A stretch of DNA of 53,179 nt, from the NCBI GenBank assembly GCA_003550305.1, contig QKYT01000149.1, forward strand, positions 3,468 to 56,646, read 5' to 3'. The notes under the pieces are model-generated. The model saw only the letters and a list, made by a program, of their open reading frames with translations, ran no database searches and was not told the origin of the DNA. Each line of letters opens with the position of its first letter. The stretch's first letter is position 1. Of this stretch, positions 10,773-52,433 are shown piece after piece. Both the position numbers and the translations under genes were made by a program. Source of the DNA: Glomus cerebriforme (taxonomy: Eukaryota > Glomeromycota > Glomeromycetes > Glomerales > Glomeraceae).

Positions 10773-11327
10773 ATGACTGCAGATCAGCCAATTACACAAC
10801 ATCAACAAATTTTGCAAGTTATAAGTTACTTGAAATTTTATCACTTATCACCAAATGATAATAATTTTTATTATGTAACTTGTAAGATTATTTTGCAAGA
10901 AGATGTTGGCTCTTTTGATGATCATGATCATTATAATCACGGATTCTTTTACCAACATCCAAATGATCCCTCCACAGTATATTTCGTTACTTGTAAATTA
11001 ATTCCATATCATTTAATAGAAAATATATTAAATAATGGAATGGATTTTAATAATAAATGTATGGTATTATTATCCTTACATCAAAAACTCAATCTCGAAC
11101 AAAGCTTGAAACAAAAACTTTTTAATTTAATGCGAAATGCAAACTCGACAATACAATTCGTTTCAAAGGCAGATATTCAAAATTATAATGATAGTGGCTT
11201 ACCAAACAATGATCATATTGCTTATCAAAATACAAATCAATCGGATGATACTTATTTTGATGTTACTTATCAACAAGTTGATTATCACCAAAATCATCAA
11301 AACAATTTGGATTTTATCCAAAATTAA
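10773..11327 (+). CDS. Unrecognised protein, member A of a two-gene family
   Basis: An intact 184-codon frame. The core, about residues 13-120, reads ISYLKFYHLSPNDNNFYYVT, then SFDDHDHYNHGFFYQHP, VYFVTCKLIPYHLIENILNN and LSLHQKLNLEQSLKQKLF. The tails are short and rich in N, Q, D and H (probably disordered), with no signal peptide or membrane segment. It is clearly paralogous to the gene at 18197-18865: the core aligns with about half the residues identical and indels only in loops, which argues that both are real and under protein-level constraint. The N-terminus is about 40 residues shorter than in the paralog, and no in-frame ATG just upstream would lengthen it. The function is unknown to me. 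Confidence 0.8.
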   Translation: MTADQPITQHQQILQVISYLKFYHLSPNDNNFYYVTCKIILQEDVGSFDDHDHYNHGFFYQHPNDPSTVYFVTCKLIPYHLIENILNNGMDFNNKCMVLLSLHQKLNLEQSLKQKLFNLMRNANSTIQFVSKADIQNYNDSGLPNNDHIAYQNTNQSDDTYFDVTYQQVDYHQNHQNNLDFIQN

Positions 11328-18196: not shown

Positions 18197-18865
18197 TTAT
18201 ATAAAAGAGGTTTCGGAATCATTTTGATAATTTTGATATGTAAAATTGTTAGAATCGACTATTTGCTGCGGATGATCCAATCCAATTGCATCTTGATGAA
18301 CATTATTTGGTAAGCGATTGTTGTAAGTTTGAATATCTGTCGTTAAACCGGGTTGTGTTGTCAAGTTTGCACAGTGCAATGAGTGCATAATATCGAAAAT
18401 TTTTTGTCTCAAACTTTGTTCGAGATTAAGCCTTTGATGTACGGATAAAAATACCTTACAATTCAAGTCAATTCCATCAAAATCCATTACATTATTCAAG
18501 ATATATTCTACTAAATAATCTGGAAGTAATCTACAAGTAACATAATATATTGAGACTGGATCATGCTGGAAAAAGAATCCATGATTATAAGGGTAATTAT
18601 CATCAAAAGAGGCAGAATCTACGTTTTTACAAATTATTTGATAAAAGTTTTTATCATTTGATGAAAAGTGAAAAAATTTTAGGTAGCTTAAAACCGATGC
18701 CATATTATGTGTCATAACTTGATTGGCTGCATCAAAAGTAGTTGATGTATTAGAAAAATTCATCACATTTCCTTGAGAAGATGCTTGATATTGTGTAGTT
18801 GAAAAATTGTAAGGATGAGTAGCGACATTAAATGATAGTTGATCACAAAATAAATTTTCATCCAT
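18197..18865 (-). CDS. Unrecognised protein, member B of a two-gene family
   Basis: An intact 222-codon frame, paralogous to the plus-strand gene at 10773. The shared core, about residues 57-162, has VLSYLKFFHFSSNDKNFYQI, SFDDNYPYNHGFFFQHD, IYYVTCRLLPDYLVEYILNN and LSVHQRLNLEQSLRQKIFDI. The N-terminus is longer than in member A and rich in N, S, T and Q, and the tail is N/Q-rich, so both ends are likely disordered. No signal peptide or membrane segment is present. The start ATG at 18865 has an AAAATATGG context. Its upstream region shares a T/A palindrome and a roughly 60-base similar block with the region upstream of the kinase gene. Function unknown. Confidence 0.85.
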   Translation of the reverse strand: MDENLFCDQLSFNVATHPYNFSTTQYQASSQGNVMNFSNTSTTFDAANQVMTHNMASVLSYLKFFHFSSNDKNFYQIICKNVDSASFDDNYPYNHGFFFQHDPVSIYYVTCRLLPDYLVEYILNNVMDFDGIDLNCKVFLSVHQRLNLEQSLRQKIFDIMHSLHCANLTTQPGLTTDIQTYNNRLPNNVHQDAIGLDHPQQIVDSNNFTYQNYQNDSETSFI

Positions 18866-31676: not shown

Positions 31677-31678
31677 TA

Positions 31679-36776: not shown

Positions 36777-37726
36777 NNNNNNNNNNNNNNNNNNNNNNNN
36801 NNNNNNNNNNNNNNNNNNNNNNNNNNNNNNNNNNNNNNNNNNNNNNNNNNNNNNNNNNNNNNNNNNNNNNNNNNNNNNNNNNNNNNNNNNNNNNNNNNNN
36901 NNNNNNNNNNNNNNNNNNNNNNNNNNNNNNNNNNNNNNNNNNNNNNNNNNNNNNNNNNNNNNNNNNNNNNNNNNNNNNNNNNNNNNNNNNNNNNNNNNNN
37001 NNNNNNNNNNNNNNNNNNNNNNNNNNNNNNNNNNNNNNNNNNNNNNNNNNNNNNNNNNNNNNNNNNNNNNNNNNNNNNNNNNNNNNNNNNNNNNNNNNNN
37101 NNNNNNNNNNNNNNNNNNNNNNNNNNNNNNNNNNNNNNNNNNNNNNNNNNNNNNNNNNNNNNNNNNNNNNNNNNNNNNNNNNNNNNNNNNNNNNNNNNNN
37201 NNNNNNNNNNNNNNNNNNNNNNNNNNNNNNNNNNNNNNNNNNNNNNNNNNNNNNNNNNNNNNNNNNNNNNNNNNNNNNNNNNNNNNNNNNNNNNNNNNNN
37301 NNNNNNNNNNNNNNNNNNNNNNNNNNNNNNNNNNNNNNNNNNNNNNNNNNNNNNNNNNNNNNNNNNNNNNNNNNNNNNNNNNNNNNNNNNNNNNNNNNNN
37401 NNNNNNNNNNNNNNNNNNNNNNNNNNNNNNNNNNNNNNNNNNNNNNNNNNNNNNNNNNNNNNNNNNNNNNNNNNNNNNNNNNNNNNNNNNNNNNNNNNNN
37501 NNNNNNNNNNNNNNNNNNNNNNNNNNNNNNNNNNNNNNNNNNNNNNNNNNNNNNNNNNNNNNNNNNNNNNNNNNNNNNNNNNNNNNNNNNNNNNNNNNNN
37601 NNNNNNNNNNNNNNNNNNNNNNNNNNNNNNNNNNNNNNNNNNNNNNNNNNNNNNNNNNNNNNNNNNNNNNNNNNNNNNNNNNNNNNNNNNNNNNNNNNNN
37701 NNNNNNNNNNNNNNNNNNNNNNNNNN
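36777..37726. other. Assembly gap
   Basis: 950 unknown bases inside the transposase-like gene. Open frames spanning it are artefacts. The true length is unknown. Confidence 0.99.
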
Positions 37727-39884: not shown

Positions 39885-40090
39885 TTTTCCTCCTCTTAAA
39901 ATCGAGCTCCTGTGAAATTTATTGCAAGTATTTGTCACAGTTCAAAGGATTTAAGATTTCTTATTTTTTTAAAGATCAAATTTTTGGTACGAAAGATTTG
40001 TTCGATTCCATAAACATCAAAAATAAAATAAGTATTTGTTATTCTTTAGGAATAATAAGAAGTCATTTGAGATTTTATTAGTTGTTTCTT

Positions 40091-40303
40091 TCAATGAGAG
40101 CGAGTATCATGTTCAATTAATTTTCCTAAATAATAAGCAGTATATAAAACTTGGTGATGTTGCTTCAACCTTGCAAATCGTTGAAGTTGTTGATATAAAT
40201 GTTCAAACTTTGCTTGACGTTTATCCAATTGGTGTTCTGGAATTTCAGGAAGAGTTATTACGAAGGGTTCTAATTCAGCAAGTTTAGCAAGTATTTTATC
40301 CAT
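40091..40303 (-). pseudogene. Ty3/gypsy C-terminal extension
   Basis: 70 open codons: MDKILAKLAELEPFVITLPE, then HQLDKRQAKFEHLYQQLQRF and KQHHQVLYTAYYLGKLIE. A helical, charged tail downstream of the integrase C-terminal domain, in a different frame from it. Such tails occur after the integrase in some fungal gypsy elements. The function is unknown. Confidence 0.5.
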
Positions 40304-40353
40304 TTCAAAAATTTTGGAAAAAGTATTAAATTTTTTGCGGACAGGTAGGCTAT

Positions 40354-41579
40354 TTATATATTTTCTTCTGGATTATNAATAAAAATTGTTNGTTCCCANA
40401 TGGTTTGTCGATCATGATAAGNTTTTAATAATTTAATATTAATTGGTGTAGCCAATACTTTTCCATCTAAGGTACGTAATTTGTAAACTCCATTTGGTAA
40501 AATATTATGAATATAGAATGGTCCTTTCCATTTTGGNTTTAATTTNCCNGACCATTGCTTATCTTTGGCNGCATCATACATCAAGACTTTATCACCAATT
40601 GCGAATTGTGTTTCATATGTAATTTGCTGATCATGCAAATCTTTCTGCTTTTGTTGAACTTTTTGAATTTGCTTTCAAGTTTGTTCTCTAATAAAAGGTA
40701 ATTTTTCTATTAATTGATTTAGACAATCTAAAATAGTGATTTCCTCATTTCTTTATAATCTATGGGTAATCGAGCTTCTCTTCCATATGTTAAATAAAAT
40801 GGTGTTAACTTTGTAGTGGATTGTTGCGCAGTTCTATAAGCAAAAAGTACAGAAGCAATATGTTGATCCTAATCCTGCACATTTGTTACAATTTTTGCCA
40901 AGAATTCACAAAGTATTCTATTAAAACGTTCTACAAGACCATTTGTTTGTGGATGATAAGGAGTTGAAAATAATAACATATTGAAAATTTTTGGAGTAAT
41001 TCATCCACAAGTTGATTTCTAAAATGAGTTTCTCGATCTGATAAAATTATTTCTGGACAACCATGTCGACAAATAATTTCTTCATAAATAAATTATGCAA
41101 CTGTAACAGCAGAGGCTTCATGTAAAGATTTTGCTTCAGGCCATTTAGTGAGATAATCCGTAGTAACAACAATATATCTATTATGGTGTAAAGTTAAAGG
41201 TAAAAGTCCTACTATATCTATTCCAATACGTTGAAAAGGGTGAACTACTTCAAGAGGATGTAAAGGTTCCTTAGTTTTCTGCTTTCCTCTTCGTTGACAA
41301 GTATCACATGTTTTAACATATTGACAAATATCCTCATACATTTGTGGCCAATAATAAAGATGTCTGATTTTATTGAACTCTTTCTGTTTCAAAATGTCTT
41401 CCAGTGGGATGATTGTGTATTAAAAATAAAATTGCTTCTAATTCATGTTTTTGAAGTACTTTTAATAAATTTGTTGGTTGATGTTTATCCTTTTTGAATA
41501 AAATGTTTTCTTTAATTTTGAAATGTTTTGATTGAATTTTAAGATGTTTTTGCTCTTTTGGAGTAAGATTATTTGGCAT
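40354..41579 (-). pseudogene. Ty3/gypsy integrase, broken
   Basis: In order: PNNLTPKEQKHLKIQSKHFK, an HHCC zinc domain (HNHPTGRHF ... CDTCQRRG) split by a frameshift, the core with IGIDIVGLLP (first D), LSDRETHFRN (second D) and YHPQTNGLVERFNR (catalytic E), VLFAYRTAQQSTTKLTPFYL, then FAIGDKVLMYD and the GPY/F-type motif KWKGPFYI. Two tryptophan codons have become stops (VQD-stop-DQHI; EQT-stop-KQIQ), and at least two more frameshifts occur, so it is inactive. It inserts retroelement cDNA in intact relatives. Confidence 0.9.
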
Positions 41580-41879
41580 TTGTTATGTTGTTAAATAAAA
41601 TTTCAAGTTTTGGTAATGTTGTAATTCCATATTTGCAAGTTGTCTGTCATACTGCAGGAACTTTTCGCTTTCATTTACAATATGTTTCTTTAAGTTGATT
41701 AATTATAAGTTATTGAGAAGAAAGAAATCTTTTTTGACTTGGTTTAAGTTGTTCTTGGGAAAAATCATAAGGAATATGATTACTAGGTTCTCCTTACATT
41801 TCAAGTTGATATTCATGTTCAATTTTTCGTAATTGCTTAGTTTGATAAGAAAAGAAATCTTCCTTTTACTTTCCTAAGC

Positions 41880-42384
41880 TCTTCTGACTTTATTGTTATA
41901 TTAATTTAGGTTCTTCCCAAAAGACTTCATTGACTAAATAATTAGGATTCATGTCAGGATGAATTTGTCCAAGTTTAAGTCCAAAAATACAATTATGTAC
42001 TAAGGTATTATAAGATAGATTGCGTTTACAGAAGGTACAATAAGTATGAATGTGATAATTTTCTATATCACAAGAAAAATCACAGCAAGAACCTCCTCTG
42101 GTAATAGGTTGATTAGCAATTACTTGCTTTACTTTAATAATTTCTTGGTATAAAGCTTTTACTTCTTCCTCAGTGTAATTATAAGTGGTAGTCCAAGTAT
42201 TCCAGAGATTACTAACTTCAGATTCAATTTCACTTCGAGGTATACTCCAAGAGTTATGTTCAATGTCTTCATTTTTCCATTTCTGAAATTCTTCCTGCTA
42301 ACTAGTTTCAGATTCAGATTTATTCCATGCTTGCTCACGAATAGGGTCAAAATTCTCATCATATTCCTGAAAATCTGCTATAAA
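41880..42384 (-). pseudogene. Insert between RNase H and integrase with Cys/His cluster
   Basis: Reads DFQEYDENFDPIREQAWNKS, QEEFQKWKNEDIEHNSWSIP, TEEEVKALYQEIIKVKQVIA, then CCDFSCDIENYHIHTYCTFC, KRNLSYNTLVHNCIFGLKLG and QIHPDMNPNYLVNEVFWEEP. Seven cysteines and three histidines in about 40 residues suggest a zinc-binding module. This is not part of the usual gypsy domain order and is nearly open here (one internal stop). The role is unknown. It may be a family-specific domain. Confidence 0.6.
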
Positions 42385-43019
42385 AACTTTGTTTCCTCAT
42401 TAAGACGTGATAATACATCTGCATTGCCATATTTTCATCTAGCATGATGAATAATTTTGAAATTGTAAGGTTGTAAACAAAGAATCCATCTAGCATATTT
42501 TCCTTTTAATGGTATTTTATTTTGTAACCATTGTAGAGTAGAGTGATCAGTAATAAGTGTAAATTCTTAGGAACCAAGGTAATGATGAAAGTGTTCAATG
42601 GCCCAAATAATTGCTAAACACTCAAGTTCAGTGGTAGCATAATTTTGCTCAGCTTTGAAAAGACTTCTACTGGCATAAGCAATAAGTTGTTCAATTCCTT
42701 GCTCATCCTTTTGTTATAATACTGCACCTAATCCTTTTTCAAAAGCATCAGTATAAAGTACAAATGGTTTGGTGAAGTCAGGATACTTAATAACAGGAAC
42801 AGAGATTAAATAATTTTTCAAAGTTTCAAATGCATGTGCTTGTTCAACATCCCAGATAAATAGTTGATCCTTTTGCAATAATTGGTTAAGAGATTTAGCC
42901 TTCTTAGAAAAATCTTTAATAAATTTTCTATAATAAGAACAAAGACCTAAAAATCCTCGTACTTGACGTACACTTTCTGGTTGAGGAAAATTTTTAACAA
43001 CATCTAATTTACTTGTATC
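42385..43019 (-). pseudogene. Ty3/gypsy reverse transcriptase end and RNase H, broken
   Basis: From the high-coordinate end: LDVVKNFPQPESVRQVRGFL, GLCSYYRKFIKDFS (the RT thumb hallmark), VIKYPDFTKPFVLYTDAFEK, GLGAVL-stop, [57 protein letters not shown] and YGNADVLSRLNEET. RNase H acids (TDA, ELE, TDH) are present. Stops occur at least at three places. The polymerase YxDD part is missing because a TIR element begins at 43022, so the element is 5'-truncated at that point. Confidence 0.9.
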
Positions 43020-43021
43020 TA

Positions 43022-44674
43022 AGGTTGCTTGCTGAAACTAGGGGGTTTTGGTAGAATAGCGTATACGAAACTGCCGAAACTAGTTTCGCAAAATCACCTG
43101 AAATGCTGAAACTGCCAAAACTGTTTCAGCATTTCGGTGTAGTATATCATATGACATACATACAATTTTGGCATTTTGATAATCATTTGATTAATAATTA
43201 AAAAAAATTTTTTATTAAAAATTTTTTTTTTATATTTTTTTTCTCTTTTTTTTTAGATTATTAAACACTTAAATGTAAGTTGAAAGAGGGAGAGACTTTT
43301 TTTAATATTAAAGAAACGTTACTAACATTTCTTTCTCTATTTTTTTTAGGTTACCAGACTTCTTGGGTGGACTGAACTTGGAATGTAAGTTGGAAAGGGT
43401 GAATGATTCTTTTAATATTAAAAGAAACGTTACTAACGTTTCTTTCTCTATTTTTTTTAGGTTACCNGANTCCTTGGGCGGACTGGACTTGGAATGTAAG
43501 TTGGAAAGGGTGAATGATTCTTTTAATATTAAAAGAAACATTACTAATGTTTCTTTCTCTATTTTTTTTAGATTACCAGACTCCTTGGGCGGACTGGACT
43601 TGAAATGTAAGTTGGAAAGGGGGAATGTTTTTTTTAATATTTAAAAAAACGTTACTAACATTTCTTTCTCTATTTTTTTTAGGTTACTGGACTTCTTGGG
43701 CGGACTGAACTTGGAATGTAAGTTGGAAAGGGTGAATGATTCTTTTAATATTAAAAGAAATGTTACTAACGTTTCTTTCTCTATTTTTTTTAGGTTACCG
43801 GATTCCTTGGGCGGACTGGACTTGAAATGTAAGTTGGAAAGGGTGAATGATTCTTTTAATATTAAAAGAAACATTACTAATATTTCTTTCTCTATTTTTT
43901 TTAGGTTACCAGACTCCTTGGGCGGACTGGACTTGGAATGCAAGTTGGAAAGGGGGAATGTTTTTTTTAATATTTAAAAAAACGTTACTAACATTTCTTT
44001 CTCTATTTTTTTTAGATTACCAGACTCCTTGGGTGAACTGGACTTGGAATGTAAGTTGAAAAGGGGAAATGTTTCTTTTAATATTAAAAGAAACGTTACT
44101 AACGTTTCTTTCTCTATTTTTTTTAGGTTACCGGACTCCTTGGGTAAACTGGATTTGGAATGTAAGTTGGAAAGGGAAAATGTTTTTTTTAATATTAAAA
44201 GAAATGTTACTAATGTTTCTTTCTCTATTTTTTTAGGTTACCAAACTTCTTAGGCAAAATGGACTTGAAATGTAAGTTGAAAAGAGAGGGAGAGTTTTTT
44301 AATATTAAAGAAATGTTACTAACATTTCTTTCTTTATTTTTTTAGGTTGCCAAACCTTCTCNGACAAACTGAACTCAGAAATGAAGTTTACTTCAAAGAA
44401 ATGTAATCTTTTATTATAATATTAAATAAACATAAAAATTACAATAAATTATTCAATTACATATAAATTTATTGAATTATATGGCGAAACTATGCCGAAA
44501 CTCATATAAAATATTACTACTTGTTGTGCCAAAACTATGGATAAATTTATTATAAAGGTTTCACAAATTTTGGCAGTTTCGCAAGTTTTAGCAGTTTCGC
44601 AATTTCGCAGTTTTGACACTATATAAGAGTTTTAGCATTTCACGTTGGGCTAGATAGGTTTCGGCAAGTAACCT
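43022..44674 (+). mobile_element. TIR element carrying the intron-like array 1
   Basis: AGGTTGCTTGCTGAAAC at the left and AGGTTACTTGCCGAAAC (reverse complement of the right end) match at 15 of 17 bases and are flanked by TA on both sides. Subterminal GAAACTGCCRAAAC repeats lie inside both ends (43065-43130 and 44480-44640). A TA target fits Tc1/mariner-like insertion. No transposase is encoded. The interior is the tandem array. It sits at the truncated edge of the gypsy element, but the right flank does not continue the reverse transcriptase, so a rearrangement followed or accompanied insertion. Confidence 0.75.
43257..44346 (+). repeat. Array 1: eleven near-identical intron/exon-like units of about 111 bp
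   Basis: Ten donor sites lie at 43275, 43385, 43496, 43607, 43718, 43829, 43940 (GCAAGT), 44051, 44162 and 44272. The other nine read GTAAGTTG. Each 'intron' of 74-76 nt has TTAATATTAA-type sequence, an ACGTTACTAACGT-type core with the TACTAA branch motif, then TTTCTTTCTCTA, a run of seven or eight T and AG. The 35-nt 'exons' read close to GTTACCAGACTCCTTGGGCG plus GACTGGACTTGGAAT. Unit spacing is exactly 111 bp in the middle and 110 at both ends. Units 2-3-4 and 5-6-7 repeat as a 333-bp trimer. A 37-residue frame also runs through several units (LECKLERVNDSFNIKRN), but the spliced exon length of 35 would shift frames. Confidence 0.85.
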
Positions 44675-44676
44675 TA

Positions 44677-47733: not shown

Positions 47734-49362
47734 TTTTTTTTTTTGAAAACGCACTGTAATCATGATCTTTATTATGTGTATATCGATGGACATTGCCCGG
47801 TATACAATAGAAATAAAATTATATAGAACAGATATAAGACTTCCATCCAAAAGGAAAATCCTAACACGTCACACTTACGTAGCATGAGTCCTCAGAGTGA
47901 GGACTGAAAGCAAGACCTCCTTAGATATTAGTATGCTCTGATTCTCCCTCACACCCCAGTGCTAGCACCAAATAAAGTAATTCTTTTCCCCAGTCCTCCC
48001 AAATCTCCCCTCAATATCCTTGGGTCTTCAAACTAGTACGATTTGTTATAAAAGTCTACACGCTTTTGTAAAAGGAATTATAAAAGCCGGATACTAGTAC
48101 CAACCTCCAGAAAGAAAGAAAAACTAATCTAATACTATAACTAAAGATACAAAAAAAGAAAAAAAAACCTACTTCTACCTCTACACCTTCCCTACCAAGA
48201 CCGGTACCAAGTCACCCTTACGGATACTCCAGATGAATCGAGACAACTGCTTATACTGTTTCATCCGAAGGCCATCACCCAGTACCTTGCCTCACCTTCT
48301 GAATGGCACCCATAGCTTTCATCCATCACGACCGCCCCAGTAGGAGTTAATCCCAAAATAAGCTAATTCCTCACGGCCTGGACTGACATATCCAAGAATC
48401 AAGCTGACTACTTACTGTCTACACGGTGTGTCCAACCCTATCGAAGAATCTTCATCCTTGATGTACCTATTGCAGAAAAAATATCATCTTGCTCCCAGTA
48501 TCCTCAAACCAATTTTACCCAATTAACGTACCTGACCCTGCACCCAATGTTTTCTGCACCCTTTTATTCTTTTTATTAATTTTTCTATTCAACTACTATG
48601 ACGTTACCTTAAAGGCAAAATTAGGGATCACCATCTGTGAAACAAAACCTAGGAATGTATTACAACAAGGGAACCAATCATCAACAGATGATCGACTGTC
48701 AATCAAAATTTTCAGTACCCCCCATCTCCTGCCAGAGAATACCACTTCGCAGTAGTTCATCCAAATCTGCAGCCAAGGAGAAGCAGACTTAGTATAGCGG
48801 TATATGTTTATGTTCCAACGCCGGTTCAGTATTTGTCTTTATGAGCCTGAAAATCTTGATGCCTTTCACCTTTCCACTAACTGAAAATAAAATTAAAATT
48901 TATAATAAACGAAATTATCACCAAACTTTTACTCCAGAAAAGCCTCTCCCTGTTGAGCCAAGTCCATATGACAACTTAGTAAAAAACTGCCTAATTTCTA
49001 AAGAAACTTCACACTAGGCCAACTCTAGGGTCCATCCAAAGTAGTCACAAGATCAACCCATCTGTCTTGTGCACAAAGAGCGTATCTTAGAATACCAAAC
49101 GACTGCTCAGGTATCAACTTTAGAGAAGGACGTAGGTGACTGAAAATTATAGAGACCTGATTTGCAGAGAAACTTGGTGTGCCAGACACTAAATAACAAA
49201 CTTTCTAAACCTCTCTAGTTAAGTTCAGCATCATAGAGCAACTTTTCCTATGACTAAAAGACCACTTTCTTAGACCAAAACGGCCAAAAAGCGCAACTTT
49301 TCTTTCCAAAACTTCTTCAGAGAAATGGGTGTAAGGATCAACAGGGAGAGTTGCCCCCCCTC
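47734..49362 (-). mobile_element. 5'-truncated non-LTR retrotransposon or SINE-like copy
   Basis: Read on the minus strand the element runs from GGGGGGGCAACTCTCCCTG near 49362 to ACACATAATAAAGATCATG and a poly(A) tract at 47734-47744. Perfect 14-bp duplications flank it, the hallmark of target-primed reverse transcription. It is clearly GC-richer than the flanks. No RT or endonuclease motif was found. A short coding-like piece near the middle reads LGDGLRMKQYKQLSRFIWSI. Stops are frequent. It could be the 3' end of a LINE, a SINE, or a retrocopy of a host RNA. The low divergence of the duplication points to a recent insertion. Confidence 0.7.
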
Positions 49363-49435: not shown

Positions 49436-52433
49436 CATCGGCAAATTTTTTAGTCTACAGATCTGTGCAGTTCTGCAATATCATTATATTTGCACAGTTC
49501 TTTAATAAAAATTGCCGATAATCTGTAATATGCAGATTATTGCCAAACTTTTAATAGAGTTCTGCGAACATCTGTAAAATGCAAGATTGTCATTATTTTT
49601 TACAAACAAATCTGCAACAATTTGCAAAGTGAAAAAAAAAGTTTATTTTGTTTAAACTTCTTGGTTTTTCAATTTTTTTTAAATAAAAACTTTGGGATTT
49701 TGATTTTTTAACTAATTTTTTAACTTAGTTTTTTTTAATTCTTATTGTGTATGAAGTTCTTCAAACTTCATATTTAATCTGTGGCATGCAGATTTTTTTC
49801 CTTTTTTTTTTGCAGGACTCCGGATTTCTCTCATATCTCTGGATTTTATTTTCAAAAAATAAGTATATATTTTTATTAAATGAACGTTTACTAACGTTCT
49901 TTTTATTTTTTTAGGTTCCAGAAAACCGAATTATGGCTCCGGGCTCCCACTTCAAAGGTAATAACTTCAAAAATTTTTTTCTCTTTTTTTTTTTTTATTA
50001 AATGAACGTTTACTAACATTCTTTTTATTTTCTTTAGGTTCCAGGAAACTGAAGTACAGCTCCGGACTCCCATTTCAAAGGTAAGACTTCAAAAATTTTT
50101 TGTTTATTTTTTTTTTTATTAAATGAACGTTTACTAACATTCTTTCTTTTGTAGGTTCAGGTCTTTGGGTATGGAACTTAGAAATAGGTTCATAGTAAAG
50201 GGTGAGGGGTATTAAGAAATGTTTACTAACGTTCTTTCTTTTGTAGGTTCAGGTTTTTGGGTATGAGACTTCAAAATAAGTTTGTAGTAAAGGGGGAGGG
50301 GTATTAAGAAACGTTACTAATATAACATTCTTTCTTTTGTAGGTTTGGGTCTTCAGGTATGAGACTTCGAAATAGGTTCATAGTGAAGGGAAAGGAGTAT
50401 TAAATGAATGTTTACTAACGTTCTTTCTTTTGTAGGTTCAGGTTTTCAGGTATGAGACTTCGAAATAGGTTCATAGTGAAGGGGGAGGGATATTAAAAAA
50501 CGTTACTAATATAATGTTCTTTCTTTTGTAAGTTCAGGTCTTCGAGTATAAGACTTTGAAATAGGTTTATAATGAAGGGAGAGGGGTATTAAGAAACGTT
50601 ACTAATGTAATATTCTTTTTTTTTCTTATAGGTTCAGATTTGACTTGGACTTCGAAGATTAGGATTTCAGCTTCGAGATTCGACTTAAACTTCAAAGGTT
50701 TGTATTAGGGGAGATAGATAGATTTTTTTTTGTTAGAGAAACGTTACTAATGTAATGTTTCTTTCTTTTTTGTAAGACTTTGGCTTCAGGATTCGACCTG
50801 AACTTTTAAGGTTTGTATTGGGAAGTTATAATTTTTTTTTTATTAAAGAAACGTTACTAACGTAATGTTTCTTTCTTTTTTTGTAGGACTTCAGCTTCAG
50901 ATTTGACCTGAACTTCAAAGGTTTGTATTGGGGAAGATAGATAGATTTTTTTTGTTAGAGAAACGTTACTAACGTAATGTTTTTTTTTTTTTTATAGGAC
51001 TTCGGCCTCAGATTTGACTTCTTGGACTTCAAAATTGAAGGTTTGTTATCTACTTTGTTTTTTTAATGAAACATTTAACTAACGTTTCTTTTCTTTTCTT
51101 TTATAAGTTCTTCCAGGTGGTACTTCAAAGGTATACCTTTGAATTTTATTATTATTTTTTTTAATGAAATGTTAATAACTAACATTCCATTTTTTTTTGT
51201 AGGGTGAGTTCCCAGGATTTCAAAGGTAAATTTACCTTCATTTTTAAAGGTTTTTTTTTAATGATTGTTTTTAATATTTTATTTATTTTTTATTTTGTAG
51301 GTTCCAAAATTGAGTAATTCAGAATTTCAATATTCTTTTTTAGGTCCCGCAATATGGGTATATGGGATTTCGAAGGTAAGCTTCNAAACTTTCTTTTATT
51401 GTATTTAACAAAATATTAATAACTAACGTTCNTTTTTCTTTCTTTATAGATTTCTTCCGACGTGAGTTAAGGGAACTTCGAAGGTAAATAAATACCTTCG
51501 AAAATATTTTTTTATTATTTTTTTCAACAAAACGTTAAATTAACATTTCAATTTTTTTCTTTATGGGTTTCCGGGCATTGATATTATGGATTTTGAAGGT
51601 TAGCTTCAAAAAAAATATATTTTTTTTTGTTTTTTTTAGCGAAACTTTTTACTAACATTTTGTTGGTTTCTTTTTTTAGTTTCTGGTATTCTTCGCAGCT
51701 TTTTCAAAGGTAAATAGTACCCTCAAAGATTTGTTTCTTTTTTAACGAAACATCAACTAATGCTTCGCTTTTCTTTTATAAATTCCGCGCATGATATTAC
51801 AAATTGAAGGTATATAATACCTTCAAAAAAATTTTATTTTTTTTTGTTTTTAACGAAATGTTACTAACATTTTGTTATTTTTTTTGTAGGTTCTCCAGGT
51901 GGATTATAGGATTTTGATGGTATAATACTTTCAAATTTTCTTTTTAATTCCTTTTTTAACGAACGATTATTTCTTTTCTTTTATAGATTCTTCCAGACGT
52001 GAGTATGTGGGATTTCAATGAAAATATCTTAGTTGTTCATTAGAATCGAACTAACTGGAACTATGTCCAAACCATTAACAACATGTAAAGAATAGGAAAT
52101 TAGTTTTTTTTTGTATTTAATAATAAGTAAATTAGTTTTTAATTTGTAAATATATTTGACTGTAATTAATAAAATTAATAAAGCATAAATTACATTATAC
52201 AACTGAAAAGTAAATGTATAATGATAATAAACAGAAATATAGTAAAAATTTACAAATGAAGTTATTNNNAAGATTTGNTTTGTAAANTTCTGCACAGATT
52301 TTTAATACTTAAATAATCTGCGCAGAAATCATAAAATTTTTTTTTTCAAAGTTTGATAGTATGTCCAAAGATCTGTACAGAATTATTATATTGCAGACCT
52401 GTGCAGATCTGCGGACTAAAAAATTTGCCAATG
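49436..52433 (+). mobile_element. TIR element carrying the intron-like array 2
   Basis: The left end CATCGGCAAATTTTTTAGTC continues CTACAGATCTGTGCAG. The reverse complement of the right end is CATTGGCAAATTTTTTAGTC, continuing CGCAGATCTGCACAG. About 60 bases are alignable with high identity. Subterminal CTGCARATNTGC-like words repeat at both ends. No transposase ORF. The target duplication is unclear. The TIR differs from that of the 43-kb element, so the same type of cassette array has entered at least two element families. Confidence 0.7.
49860..52020 (+). repeat. Array 2: about twenty diverged intron/exon-like units
   Basis: Early units: GAACGTTTACTAACGTTC, T-rich tract, TTAG, then a 43-nt block (GGCTCCGGGCTCCCACTTCA and on) ending CAAAG and a donor (GTAATA, GTAAGA). 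The middle units at 50150-50640 have TTTTGTAGGTTCAGG acceptors about every 92 bases and weaker GTTCAT donors. Later units carry GACTTCGGCTTCAGATTTGA-type blocks ending TTCAAAG and GAAACGTTACTAA-like cores. The last ones to about 52010 are heavily decayed. The order of signals is the same as in array 1. No long frame is open through the array. Confidence 0.75.

Follow-up and report, generated by a model that had tools for sequence, protein, structure and literature searches.

What is the tandem series of intron-like segments that lies near 43 kb in this stretch of Glomus cerebriforme DNA, and why is it enclosed by terminal inverted repeats (TIRs)? The whole stretch that was analysed, 53,179 nucleotides of contig QKYT01000149.1, is called the window here, and the genome searched for relatives comprises 112.5 Mb. 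The explanation that we favor, with a probability of about 0.6, is that the enclosed element (E1) is a non-autonomous hAT-type transposon, and that its cargo is a self-contained tandem unit of microexons and near-consensus U2-type introns, most likely noncoding.

The original prediction had placed a TIR pair with flanking TA around the array. The TIR pair stands, but the TA is part of the inverted repeat, so that E1 spans 43020-44676. The inverted repeat reads TAAGGTTGCTTGC(C/T)GAAAC, and the ends of the element are rich in GAAAC/GTTTC motifs. E1 and its surroundings contain the following features:

40001..43019 (-), extent provisional: Ty3/Gypsy-like pol (RT/RNase H) adjoining the left end of E1; three-frame translation DTSKLDVVKNFPQPESVRQVRGFLGLCSYYRKF..., family named by eye
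43020..44676 (+): E1, putative non-autonomous hAT-type TIR transposon with array; from TIRs at both ends, genome matches and the duplications of its relatives
43020..43038 (+): left terminal inverted repeat of E1, TAAGGTTGCTTGCTGAAAC
43257..43274 (+): incomplete first exon, preceded by a T-tract that ends in AG; from the sequence
43275..43349 (+): predicted intron 1, 75 nt; by script
43350..43384 (+): 35-nt microexon, first of nine; by script
43385..44271 (+): predicted introns 2-9 with the remaining eight 35-nt microexons, the GC-AG intron being 43940-44015; by script
43421..43445 (+): one of the palindromes that surround the branch motif, AAAGAAACGTTACTAACGTTTCTTT; from sequence and fold
44272..44345 (+): predicted intron 10, 74 nt; by script
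44346..44384 (+): last exon, start only, with no good donor after it; from the sequence
44658..44676 (-): right terminal inverted repeat of E1

Ten intron-like segments with GTAAGT-type donors (one GC-AG), TACTAA motifs, T-tracts ending in AG and 35-nt exons between them had been predicted, and an annotation script recovered them as ten introns of 74-76 nt with nine internal 35-nt exons. Together with the partial first exon and the last exon that lacks a good donor, they account for the eleven units reported inside the TIRs. In nine introns the donor reads GTAAGT, and the one at 43940 reads GCAAGT. All of them (10/10) contain TACTAA[CT] and a T-tract closing with AG, and all ten carry donor, branch, polypyrimidine tract and acceptor in spliceosomal order, with the single GC donor as the exception to GT. 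TRF describes the same region of the window as a 111-nt array (43272-44352, 9.8 copies, 89% matches). When the E1 unit consensus was shuffled with dinucleotides preserved, GTAAGT, TACTAAC and Y6AG appeared in this order in only 3 of 200000 shuffles, and a looser set of splice signals in 1052 of 200000.

Introners have splice sites at or beside the ends of the element. In E1, the first donor lies 255 nt and the last acceptor 331 nt inside the ends, and internal splicing alone would therefore not restore an exon interrupted by the insertion. Complete E1 copies carry 3-12 intron units each and represent all residues modulo 3; these units were counted by HMM, as a strict regular expression undercounts in decayed copies. 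The number of units probably changes by unequal exchange or slippage.

E1 belongs to a repeat family. At least 48 matches were found genome-wide with 40 of 256 candidates scored. The search for other elements with the same TIR, suggested in the original prediction, was productive: allowing up to 3 mismatches, the TIR pattern gave 624 matches against 4 for a reversed-pattern control, and array-free elements are among the 624. Both ends could be placed in 19 complete copies from 28 E1 loci, and comparison of offsets established a duplication length of 8 bp. Sixteen of these 19 copies are flanked by an 8-bp target duplication at 7/8 identity or better (exact in 8/19), compared with 6 of 342 mismatched left/right flank pairs that reach even 6/8 identity. 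In one copy (L022) the duplication is present only after a one-base shift, and in another (L025) it is absent. The window copy also has none, its flanks CTTGTATC and TAATAGGT agreeing at 0/8 positions. Elsewhere in the window, an E1-type TIR end AAGATTGCTTGCC followed by AAACTGCCA repeats starts at 31677 and runs for about 400 bp with no array seen; it has the appearance of a plain MITE from the E1 family. A 950-base run of N occupies 36777-37726.

With TIRs and target duplications, the E1 family has the DNA-transposon signature that is also expected of introners. The duplication length and the element ends point to the hAT group. Both ends of the window copy have counterparts in a 6.2-kb relative (L040), with 82% agreement over 104 nt and 71% over 243 nt; L040 is flanked by an exact 8-bp target duplication, TGTATACC. 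Between 902 and 5725 its sequence consists of N. The start of an open reading frame before this gap (107 aa) looked BED-like by eye, an idea that was rejected when Pfam returned no transposase or BED family match. The hAT assignment of E1 hence rests on duplication length and ends, because the interior of the long relative is N and its ORF start lacks a Pfam transposase. The hAT domain PF05699 has at least 143 matches genome-wide (150 of 265 candidates scored). In a comparison by eye with roughly the first 100 of the 624 TIR places, no such domain lay between paired E1-type TIRs; two of the pairs compared read N inside, and one domain lies just outside a TIR on contig C184. We read E1 as a non-autonomous hAT-type transposon.

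Inserted copies of E1 appear to be decaying freely. Relative to an assumed ancestor, 1658 of 2075 differences (80%) in 176 units are C-to-T or G-to-A; these units are the 190 rows from loci L001-L028 less the 14 from the window. Such changes are most frequent at CpG and CpC, while many A and T positions are invariant and about nine vary. The spectrum resembles deamination-like decay. Of 157 full units, 19 carry an altered donor G, a proportion that falls among those of the G positions nearby. Selection on splicing, if any, must thus act on source copies, since inserted copies show no constraint.

Serial intron units are not confined to E1. Another TIR element of the window (E2) and further repeats also carry them:

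49436..52433 (+): E2, second TIR element, its microexon-intron array larger than that of E1 and with other exons; ends as in Plavaka-encoding elements
49816..52000 (+): array of E2, exons 12-66 nt by script, several boundaries ambiguous

E2 has at least 167 matches genome-wide (40 of 359 candidates scored), and its end pattern gave 60 matches compared with 0 for the control. Its ends agree with those of a long element (L041) in two stretches, one of 382 nt at 88% and one of 217 nt at 91%. The Plavaka transposase domain PF18759 lies inside E2-type TIR pairs at C353:127903-128643 and C601:62986-63498 (L042 and L041), and four more PF18759 places (C210, C379, C770 and C1032) were found by eye within 3 kb of one listed E2 end. 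Target duplications of 2-3 bp are expected in the CACTA group; the flanks of three E2-type elements are AA/AA, AT/AT and AG/AA. Judged by the ends that it shares with Plavaka-encoding elements, E2 is a putative non-autonomous Plavaka transposon. At several of its exon-intron junctions, the exon end and the intron start together make a palindrome that spans the donor.

An intron similar to that of E1, accompanied by other exons, was found in three more repeat families (E2, E3 and E4) and in two arrays seen once each, one at L045 and one at L047 (E5), whose exons are mostly 45 nt. The palindrome around the branch motif, GAAACGTTACTAACGTTTC, allowed to differ at up to 2 positions, has 440 genome matches compared with 3 for the control; many of these sites count twice because the palindrome is nearly its own reverse complement. 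From the first 100 or so of the 440 listed, five loci and then twelve more were read, and the twelve are, by reading, seven E3, three E4 and two E2 or E2-like copies. E3 has at least 69 genome matches (40 of 347 candidates scored) and E4 at least 71 (40 of 106 candidates scored). E4 has inverted ends and two or three introns per copy, and ends of E3 were sought and not found. TRF reported no unit-length array in L046, L054, L058 and L061. Two E3 loci (L057 and L059) have an upstream block in common, 83% identical over 468 nt, with a TATATA-like stretch and a short palindrome, which is possibly a promoter. A GC-richer repeat, TTATTATGTGTA..TGGACATTGCCC, seems by eye to occur both in the window at about 47745-49350 and at L046:1-310.

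A model of the E1 intron matched 17 of 17 other array loci at E<=0.01, although these had been chosen by the intron motif and many of the matches span little beyond it. In L044, L051, L056, L060 and L062 the match extends well past the motif, and in L047 it runs from intron position 7 to 72 (E 1.3e-6). Elsewhere in the window the model found three places at E<=0.01, all within E2, and it matched 0/5 host actin-family loci and 0/3 long-transposon loci. The E1 exon model gave a single weak match on the same loci (L047, E 0.021). In several array families donor, branch, T-tract and AG follow in this order between other exons. As far as such models can tell, the common part of the array families is the intron and not the exons.

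As RNA, the palindromic branch region shows an excess of folding. Of 66 array introns, 42 have a 59-nt stretch ahead of the acceptor that folds better than its shuffles (p<=0.05), compared with 0 of 12 host introns, the latter being from three actin-family genes with ends placed by hand and having, by eye, weaker branch motifs. By family, the excess is seen in 8/10 introns of E1, 7/16 of E2, 14/16 and 7/12 of E3, 3/3 of E4 and 3/9 of E5. From two examples we had believed that a hairpin loop presents the branch A. This was dropped: a role of the fold in branch presentation is unsupported, as a branch-like A lies in a predicted loop (stem of at least 5 bp) in 29/66 array and 3/12 host introns. 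In two E3 introns folded whole, a second hairpin holds the donor, and the E3 intron at L043:1484-1565 forms two strong hairpins, one with the donor site (z -4.5). An apparent covariation of the hairpin in ten hand-picked introns (nine two-sided cells, 0/500 shuffles as high) was discarded, since about 170 E1 units show no covariation of stem pairs (p=0.53, 0.08 and 0.31 for three pairs). Changes at neighboring CpG letters of the E1 stem are mutually exclusive, as CpG decay predicts. Rfam returned, for four loci, only a sub-threshold mir-653 match (30.7 bits compared with 77), taken as chance.

In genes for micro-exon proteins, exon lengths keep the reading frame and the ORF is open. E1 departs from this in its 35-nt exons, its free number of units and its lack of significant stop depletion. 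Stop codons are not significantly depleted in any of five families (lowest P 0.08, 23 hand-chosen exons), and the spliced translation of the window copy had no match at E<=1 among 5.8 billion proteins, with only two candidates sharing words. Spliced junction patterns gave 6 genome matches compared with 4 for the control in E1, and 1 compared with 0 in E3, with no intronless copy in either case; retroposed spliced copies of E1 and E3 were accordingly rejected as not beyond chance. A noncoding unit is favored because there is neither significant stop depletion, nor a protein match, nor an intronless genomic copy, and the array would most likely be a noncoding transcription unit. In other parts of the window, the ORFs at 10773-11327 (+) and 18197-18865 (-) are similar by eye; besides itself, the latter matches only three Glomus cerebriforme hypothetical proteins, at 43-55% identity.

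These results have to be set against four other explanations. An ordinary minisatellite, grown in a MITE from a chance intron-bearing fragment and never spliced now, would account for the tandem array and its variable number of units, for E1 donors that decay like neighboring positions and for the failure to find spliced genomic copies by the E1 and E3 junction patterns. We regard it as unlikely, as one chance minisatellite does not predict several families with other exons, ordered splice signals and a branch region that folds better than shuffles. Slightly less likely is the capture by a transposon of a coding microexon gene, for a repeat protein or an effector-like product, which had been among the original suggestions and is weakly disfavored by exon lengths that are not locked to 3, the 3-12 units, the lack of significant stop depletion and the lack of a protein match. 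It is true that none of the three frames of the E1 consensus exon contains a stop, and that stops in the window copy, such as TGG to TGA, fit C-to-T decay, but shuffles are open in all frames as often as P=0.24, exon lengths are mixed modulo 3 with the number of units free, and neither a protein match at E<=1 nor significant stop depletion was found in the five families.

The palindromes could instead act as DNA, as transposase-binding repeats or as cruciforms that drive expansion of the array, their splice-like appearance being secondary. A near-perfect palindrome in every unit, ends rich in GAAAC/GTTTC and a branch A often predicted in the stem rather than in the loop would agree with this. 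We nevertheless consider it improbable, given that the order and orientation of donor, T-tract and AG around the palindrome are constant in the arrays read, which DNA binding would not need, and that the ends of E1 and E2 differ. Least probable of all is that the array is a factory for new introns that it gives singly to host genes, another of the original suggestions. A TIR element with strong intron signals resembles DNA-type introners (PMC9860276), but all 12 of the sampled palindrome loci are, by reading, copies of array families, none being a lone host-gene intron, and the 12 introns of three actin-family host genes lack such a fold.

We return to E1 as a probable hAT-type transposon with a cargo of microexons and introns. 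Read from the letters of the DNA, its introns would be removed from RNA transcribed from the element itself, and it may be on the source copies that selection for splicing competence acts. Introns that resemble each other and have a palindromic branch region recur, with other exons, in hAT-type E1, in Plavaka-type E2 and in further repeats. Copies would spread by cut-and-paste with the enzymes of their relatives; once inserted, they decay without visible constraint. A benefit to the element at the RNA level is the weakest step, for which escape from silencing or better export would be guesses. Tentatively, one may think of a selfish class that extends over hAT-type, Plavaka and small TIR transposons, with a splicing-array cargo passed between superfamilies and acting at the RNA level, for example by using the spliceosome for silencing escape or export; we consider this broader idea possible rather than probable.

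If spliced, each of these elements would give transcripts with a natural series of as many as twelve near-identical introns, and, with dozens of genomic copies bearing graded mutations, intron definition and microexon recognition could be tested directly in them. The presence of a similar intron in two transposon groups would point to an intron-exon cassette that can travel as cargo from one mobile element to another. The array families may also be of use in classifying repeats of mycorrhizal genomes that have no class so far; two-thirds of the transposable elements of R. irregularis are still unclassified (PMC11075540). In the open-licence literature, no report was found of microexons in Glomeromycotina, of microexon tandem arrays with transposon and splicing, of tandem micro-exon genes with a transposon in fungi, or, for mycorrhizal fungi, of non-autonomous Plavaka together with hAT elements, a scope which does not establish absence from print.

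Rows of exons of about 35 nt are characteristic of schistosome micro-exon genes and aphid bicycle genes, whose products are secreted proteins; E1 has such rows, but a coding signal was not found in it. Bicycle effectors are mentioned in PMC11333574, which also describes the SP7-like effectors of arbuscular mycorrhizal fungi, secreted proteins with repeats whose genes have a conserved intron ahead of the first repeat. Like the arrays, they are built from repeats and occur in the same fungal group; unlike E1, no microexon arrays are described for them in the relevant parts of that source, and a link suggested by repeats and splicing was dropped because gene structure differs (PMC11333574). The symmetrical stwintrons of Hypoxylaceae, integrated in genes and, in the portion of PMC8469720 consulted, without target duplications, are likewise fungal, with internal inverted repeats and predicted hairpins. 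Their repeats are terminal, whereas in E1-type introns a local palindrome surrounds the branch motif and the units are tandem.

Introners with TIRs and target duplications are described in PMC9860276, the main text of which does not use the word 'tandem'. As the original prediction had proposed, a TIR element with serial intron cassettes differs from them. Both are DNA-transposon-like elements with spliceosomal intron signals; E1 has many introns per element, with signals far inside its TIRs, and no single host-gene copy of its intron appeared in the 12 sampled loci. E1 also resembles non-autonomous hAT elements and MITEs, with which its family shares the 8-bp duplication, the short TIR, the lack of a transposase and ends in common with a longer element. 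What sets E1 apart from these is its cargo, a series of intron-exon cassettes that amounts to 3-12 intron units in the complete copies read, and such an array within a transposon looks unusual.
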